From Maricaulis maris (GTDB taxonomy: Bacteria; Pseudomonadota; Alphaproteobacteria; Caulobacterales; Maricaulaceae), in contig NZ_RBIM01000009.1 in the NCBI RefSeq assembly GCF_003634045.1, positions 1 through 64,000 on the forward strand: a stretch of 64,000 bases of DNA, read 5' to 3'. The stretch's first letter is position 1; each line of letters begins with the position of its first letter. A program made the translations under genes and the position numbers. The notes beneath the pieces are model-generated. The model worked only from the letters and a program-made list of their open reading frames with translations. It ran no database searches and was not told the origin of the DNA. Of this stretch, positions 21,603 to 21,636 are shown one piece after another.

Positions 21603-21636
21603 CACGCGTGCGCGCGTGCGTACGCGTGTGCGCGCG
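21603..21636. other. 34-base alternating pyrimidine-purine tract (Z-DNA-prone) before gyrB
   Basis: Every step in 21603-21636 alternates pyrimidine and purine (17 dinucleotides: mostly CG, with four TG, one CA and one TA). Such tracts are the classic sequence requirement for left-handed Z-DNA under negative supercoiling. The tract fills half of the 73-base gap between the upstream TVP38-like gene and gyrB, starting two bases after the former's stop. The same sequence can fold into a hairpin around CGTACG at 21619-21624 with several G-U pairs. Confidence 0.75.

Follow-up and report, generated by a model that had tools for sequence, protein, structure and literature searches.

A conserved alternating pyrimidine-purine tract at the gyrB promoter in two orders of Alphaproteobacteria, a candidate B-Z switch for gyrase synthesis

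A run of 34 strictly alternating pyrimidines and purines lies directly upstream of the predicted promoter of gyrB in the stretch of DNA analysed here (the window, 64 kb in length). Comparison of relatives suggests that selection has kept this tract as a cis-element of the gyrB promoter and that it acts by being able to switch from B-DNA to Z-DNA, a reading to which we give a probability of about one half. What appears to have been kept is a Z-prone alternation and not the letters, at the promoter of a gene that sets supercoiling, and in two orders. A preliminary description of the window had interpreted the tract as a supercoil-sensitive feedback element, and this interpretation is partly supported by the comparisons below. 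To our knowledge Z-DNA has no clearly established natural function in bacteria; if the reading is true, it would provide a conserved physiological role of this kind and a physical thermostat for gyrase. In what follows, window genus and window family denote the genus and the family of the window genome. The features of the locus are as follows.

20869..21600, + strand: VTT-domain (TVP38-like) gene, upstream of the tract (Pfam PF09335)
21599..21603, no strand: GACTC, a CcrM-type site (GANTC) at the 5' tract edge (sequence)
21603..21636, no strand: 34-bp alternating pyrimidine-purine tract, predicted B-Z element (sequence, genome scan, relatives, B-Z energies)
21639..21644, + strand: predicted gyrB -35 hexamer TGGTCA (comparison of 18 window-genus genomes)
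21662..21667, + strand: predicted gyrB -10 hexamer TACAAC, 17 nt past the -35 and 6 nt before the ATG (comparison of relatives)
21674..24076, + strand: gyrB, leaderless mRNA predicted (NCBIfam TIGR01059, above its cut-off)

The tract, CACGCGTGCGCGCGTGCGTACGCGTGTGCGCGCG, occupies positions 21603-21636 between the stop codon of the VTT-domain gene (21600) and the ATG of gyrB (21674), and its 34 bp alternate without a break. The preliminary description was right about its length and perfect alternation and about its composition, mainly CG, and the profile matches (PF09335 and TIGR01059) bear out the two neighbours that it had named. The second-longest alternating run in the window measures 15 bp, less than half of the tract, and Markov shuffling of the window (100 shuffles at each of orders 1, 2, 3 and 5, 400 in all) gave no run longer than 27 bp. 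Scanning the 3.57-Mb genome for (YR)12 returned six overlapping matches per strand, all at gyrB, which is the yield of one 34-bp tract; it is the only alternating tract of at least 24 bp in the genome. Chance origin is ruled out by the shuffles together with this uniqueness. Z-DNA-forming sequences are recognized by unbroken, CG-rich pyrimidine-purine alternation of more than 8 bp, and the tract has 34 bp of it. No exact copies were found in viral contigs. Long alternating tracts were also seen in two other genomes, G032 and G121 (L154, L156 and L157, at about position 2001), at element-like loci that are not gyrase-related, where they are flanked by repeated GAACCTTGTGAACCTT-type motifs and have, as judged by eye, a primase/helicase-like ORF on one side and an ORF whose start is RuvC-like on the other.

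The position of the tract relative to the promoter was predicted by comparison. In the alignment of 18 window-genus genomes, a -35 hexamer (TGGTCA, TGGCCA, TAGCCA or TAGCCG) is followed by a 17-nt spacer, by TACAAC or a similar sequence, and 5-6 nt further on by the ATG; in the window 2 bp separate the tract end from the predicted -35. The gyrB promoter stands as a comparative prediction, because a scan for the sigma-70 consensus reported no site for it, including no -35 at 21639..21644. We take its -10 box to resemble the Caulobacter box GCTANAWC, and similar -10-like boxes precede gyrB in several tract-free relatives. Since the -10-like box (21662-21676 region) is only 5-6 nt from the ATG, the gyrB mRNA of the window genus is probably leaderless; the leader before gyrB is longer in Bosea and in other orders. 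From this layout it follows that the tract would lie immediately upstream of the -35 and outside the predicted transcript. A gyrB promoter far upstream, held in the preliminary description to speak for chance, is thus not what the comparison predicts; the promoter is placed directly downstream of the tract instead. The gene on the other side is the VTT-domain gene in seven window-genus loci and other genes in the rest, namely a glycosyltransferase-like ORF in two loci, a membrane-protein ORF in several and further ORFs elsewhere (identities judged by eye from the C-termini, the profile test covering the window's own genes). Because other genes replace it in part of the genus while the tract stays, the VTT-domain gene is, by this comparison, no part of the element.

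Within the window genus 19 genomes were sampled, and gyrB was found in 18 of them, the exception being a genome that is 65% complete. All 18 carry an unbroken run of 18-38 bp at gyrB, with lengths that vary in steps of two, and so the absence from close relatives that would have pointed to chance is not observed. The longest run measures 28-38 bp in 15 genomes, 20 bp in G003, and 18 bp in G011 and G002; in G002, 32 bp are in phase save for one C-to-G break. The preliminary description had also proposed to see in relatives whether the alternation is kept while the sequence changes; it is, in the window genus and, further afield, in Bosea, a genus of another order. The 16 aligned 28-bp tract windows of the window genus represent 13 distinct sequences, and off-phase bases number 10 of 504 over the 18 windows, all in G002, G003 and G011. 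In the distal half C/T and G/A interchange freely with the phase kept; the 13-14 bp closest to the promoter hardly vary in their letters, a degree of conservation beyond what alternation requires. Parsimony on the gyrB tree counts 8 transversions at 28 tract sites against 377 at 177 fourfold-degenerate sites and 28 at 16 spacer sites, or 0.29 per site against 2.1 and 1.75; these counts are anchored at the promoter and include the genomes with tract breaks. The transition:transversion ratios differ from both classes (Fisher p 4e-10 for fourfold sites and 2e-6 for the spacer) in an ungapped comparison of tracts of unequal length, which inflates transitions by counting register shifts; the per-site deficit of transversions stands, since such a comparison cannot remove transversions. 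Column information exceeds that of dinucleotide shuffles in the window genus (44.9 vs 38.3 bits) as in Bosea (31.9 vs 24.0 bits), an excess to which shared ancestry contributes in part. In 14 of the 15 window-genus genomes with (YR)12 at gyrB, the genome-wide match count equals that of this tract alone, and G006 has one further (YR)12 tract away from gyrB. As a control, the other 20-bp alternating tract of the window genome was compared, and it has no full-length counterpart in 18 relatives.

Outside the genus the tract becomes rare. Seven of 103 further window-family genomes have at least 14 bp of alternation within 130 bp upstream of gyrB (40, 18, 18, 18, 17, 16 and 14 bp), three near-identical promoters of 18 bp among them not being independent, and the other 96 have at most 11 bp. 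Control bins reach 14 bp in 11 of 1284 cases (Fisher 2e-4), a conservative test as the bins are 300 bp long and thus longer than the upstream regions. The 40-bp run belongs to G030, a member of another genus, and stands at the same place before gyrB, and in G125 and G159 the alternating run lies between the -35 and -10 regions and not upstream. As most window-family genomes are without the tract, gyrB can evidently do without it.

A second occurrence was found in another order. Among 80 named alphaproteobacterial gyrB loci, three have at least 20 bp within 200 bp upstream, and these are the three Bosea records. All 24 Bosea genomes in a 298-genome sample of the family were then compared. Runs of 16-28 bp are found at or near the -35 of gyrB in 22 of them; G778 has 13 bp with a single break and G622 has none. 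In 23 of the 24 the alternation runs up to a GTG at AAAAAGCC (AAAAAACC in one case), 20 nt ahead of a -10 of TATATT (TATAGT in one case), and so extends into the predicted -35. G686 has its longest run further upstream, with a broken stretch next to the promoter. Over the last 22 bp 12 of 506 bases are off phase, at most one per genome, so that 12 of 23 windows have one each. With the tract-free G622 left out, the 23 remaining genomes give 9 transversions at 22 tract sites against 152 at 69 fourfold and 40 at 15 spacer sites (0.41 per site against 2.2 and 2.7; Fisher 5e-23 and 3e-7). Several Bosea tracts upstream of gyrB (L300, L303, L304, L307, L308 and L312) have the same single break, (YR)9 followed by GG and then CGCGTG; GG corresponds to a Z-Z junction of 4 kcal/mol in the published energies (PMC3024258), and the break might tune the set point. 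Elsewhere in the Bosea family, 66 genomes were considered, of which 60 were hand-picked from the listed genomes to span many genera and six were further loci. Seven have at least 18 bp (G561 28, G600 27, G596 21, G637 20, G603 20, G734 18 and G558 18) against 0 of 1284 and 0 of 537 control bins (Fisher 5e-10). G440 and G229 of the same family have 9 and 6 bp, and the thirty best-match gyrB loci of the class-wide sample, which include these two, do not exceed 9 bp. Between the tracts of the window genus and of Bosea no common core was seen beyond CG-rich alternation. Across these comparisons the tract is a rare feature, yet one that comes back at gyrB, either upstream of the predicted -35 or within the promoter core.

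How readily such a tract would turn into Z-DNA was calculated with a two-state model that takes its dinucleotide B-Z energies and junction cost from published values (PMC3024258); its twist and supercoil constants come from other DNA, and melting and cruciforms are left out as competitors. In a 5-kb domain the calculated midpoint of the window tract is at sigma -0.036, the best of 492 window bins (median -0.054), and the transition is steep, the Z fraction rising from 3% at -0.030 to 75% at -0.035; in a 2-kb domain the flip comes later (39% Z at -0.040), and one scrambled tract gives at most 0.5% Z. Midpoints range from -0.035 to -0.039 across the 18 window-genus genomes and G030, and from -0.038 to -0.042 in the Bosea genomes that have the tract. 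Diffusible sigma has been measured at -0.033 in Salmonella and at about -0.042 in E. coli (PMC6463007). On this model the flip of the tract falls within the in vivo values of other bacteria and near physiological negative superhelicity, and by calculation the proposed flip under negative supercoiling gains in plausibility.

We propose that gyrase synthesis may be governed by the tract as a set-point sensor. Under strong negative supercoiling of the locus, the tract would go over to the Z form and absorb about 6.9 turns of underwinding. A B-Z junction would then fall at the -35, in the region where RNA polymerase would make contact through its alpha subunits, and Z-DNA next to the -35 or across it would lower the initiation of gyrB. 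When gyrase is short and the DNA relaxed, the tract would return to B-DNA and initiation would rise. Repression by the Z form was preferred as the sign of the effect since relaxation induces gyrase genes in other organisms. The reading is built on the position at the predicted promoter, conservation, recurrence and the calculated set point; Z-DNA in cells, its effect and the sign of that effect are inferred. Counting in its favour are the uniqueness of the tract in its genome at 24 bp and above, its persistence beside differing upstream genes, the low off-phase and transversion counts of both genera, the same -35 position in 23 of 24 Bosea genomes, the match in sigma, and a hairpin strength that alternation explains. 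Counting against it are the 96 of 103 window-family genomes with at most 11 bp, the tract-free G622, the off-phase base in 12 of 23 Bosea windows, the invariant 13-14 bp next to the promoter, the lack of a match in the sigma-70 scan, gyrA and topA genes that are mostly tract-free, and the simplicity of the energy model.

The main rival to a B-Z switch is a protein site, in which a regulator or nucleoid protein upstream of the -35 would recognize how alternating CG/CA DNA is shaped, or a loosely repeated motif, and the alternation would persist as a requirement of that protein. It takes first place among the rivals because the promoter-proximal half of the tract is nearly invariant in the window genus; the excess of column information in both genera also agrees with it, as does the location, activator sites being typically found upstream of the -35. 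Against this, the distal half is free in its letters and yet in phase, tract lengths differ by multiples of two between 18 and 38 bp, and the window genus and Bosea share no core beyond CG-rich alternation, and on balance we regard a protein site as rather unlikely. Less probable still is a structural part of the promoter without a regulated flip, CG-rich alternation upstream of the -35 or in the spacer acting by stiffness, twist, exclusion of nucleoid proteins or as a supercoil-buffering sink. The runs between the -35 and the -10 in G125, G159 and G765 indicate that one exact placement is not needed, as such a part would allow; strict alternation over 20-40 bp, however, exceeds what stiffness needs, and the flip is calculated to occur at plausible superhelicity.

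Two further explanations seem to us very improbable. The tract could be a selectively neutral CG-type microsatellite, maintained by slippage and by a mutational bias towards transitions, which would produce length steps of two and would gain from the ungapped comparison, where some register shifts are scored as transitions; but register shifts cannot cause the transversion deficit of both genera, the tract is the only one of its kind in most window-genus genomes and recurs at gyrB in another order, and the 20-bp control tract of the window genome is not kept at full length in 18 relatives. The tract could alternatively be a hairpin that serves as a transcription terminator behind the upstream gene, as an attenuator in RNA or as a cruciform in DNA. 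The preliminary description had stated that the same bases can form a hairpin, and the fold does exist, in L015 with near-perfect arms and better than in shuffles (1.5% of which equal it). As a conserved property it did not hold up. Alternating tracts of any kind are partly self-complementary, and the predicted RNA hairpin of the window tract is no better than in dinucleotide shuffles (z -1.35; 15 of 200 at least equal). When the order of YR dinucleotides was shuffled, with alternation and composition retained, the mean z in 19 sequences came to -0.11 (RNA energy) and +0.23 (Watson-Crick arms), and in 23 sequences of the Bosea family to -0.14 and +0.44. Hairpin and cruciform are most likely by-products of alternation, since the real tracts fold no better than these shuffles. 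In addition, the tract is not followed by a run of T, no intrinsic terminator (a G+C-rich hairpin with a T run behind it) is reported there, the upstream gene is exchanged while the tract stays, and the tract lies outside the predicted gyrB mRNA. A conserved hairpin, cruciform or terminator was accordingly rejected, as was a known RNA family, Rfam giving no match at E up to 1 within 20800-22000.

Tracts of this kind were also looked for at other topoisomerase genes. At topA no tract of at least 18 bp is found in 19 loci, one of which has 16 bp, and at gyrA of Bosea all 30 loci have at most 11 bp, so that a general feature of topoisomerase genes is unsupported. For gyrA of the window genus 15 of 17 loci were located, with 22 bp in G002, 16 bp in its sister G005 and 5-10 bp in the other 13. 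The 22-bp tract of G002 (L175) begins 93 bp and ends 72 bp before the TTG start of gyrA, directly after GATTC, and in G005 (L176) the 16 bp are accompanied by a break.

It is possible, and we suggest it tentatively, that there is a class of gyrase promoters which gauge supercoiling by a natural B-Z switch at the -35, and which evolved repeatedly or was retained in at least two alphaproteobacterial orders, represented by the family with Oceanicaulis and Glycocaulis and by the family of Bosea. Among titles and the opening parts of abstracts in the open-access literature, a body that leaves most subscription journals outside, no earlier description of a Z-DNA-prone element at a gyrase promoter was found.

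Three kinds of known system invite comparison. Promoters under GcrA/CcrM control in Caulobacterales are alike in having GANTC sites near gyrB; GANTC is the CcrM site, and in Caulobacter and Brevundimonas gyrB is counted as part of the GcrA regulon (PMC7987155). In the window a GANTC site is present at the promoter (GACTC, 21599-21603), and GANTC stands at the 5' edge of the tract in 13 of 18 window-genus genomes. Within 100 bp upstream of gyrB it occurs in 16 of 18 window-genus and in 60 of 103 other window-family genomes, the density in the window being 0.15 per 100 bp. In most Bosea gyrB loci GAATC was seen after the -10. Control by GcrA/CcrM, however, accounts neither for the alternation nor for the way in which the tract changes between genomes. 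The relaxation-stimulated gyrase genes of E. coli (gyrA and gyrB), Mycobacterium and Streptomyces (gyrBA) share with the window the gene, which is gyrB by TIGR01059 at a promoter placed by comparison and unseen by the consensus scan, and presumably the logic, output rising on relaxation. Streptomyces gyrBA rises 9-fold with novobiocin (PMC5055605), and in E. coli gyrA a bent stretch of 20 bp surrounding the -10 was found to carry the relaxation response (PMC6170449), whereas the window gyrB has a Z-prone tract upstream of its predicted -35. In the passages cited from the work on these systems, no Z-prone element at a gyrase gene is named. Finally, the plasmid inserts of (CG)n and mixed YR sequence that form Z-DNA, as treated in SIBZ and Z-Hunt, resemble the tract in length, in composition and in their calculated transition (energies in PMC3024258). 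From such inserts and from genome-wide predictions the window tract differs in being natural, in being conserved, and in standing at a defined, if predicted, promoter.
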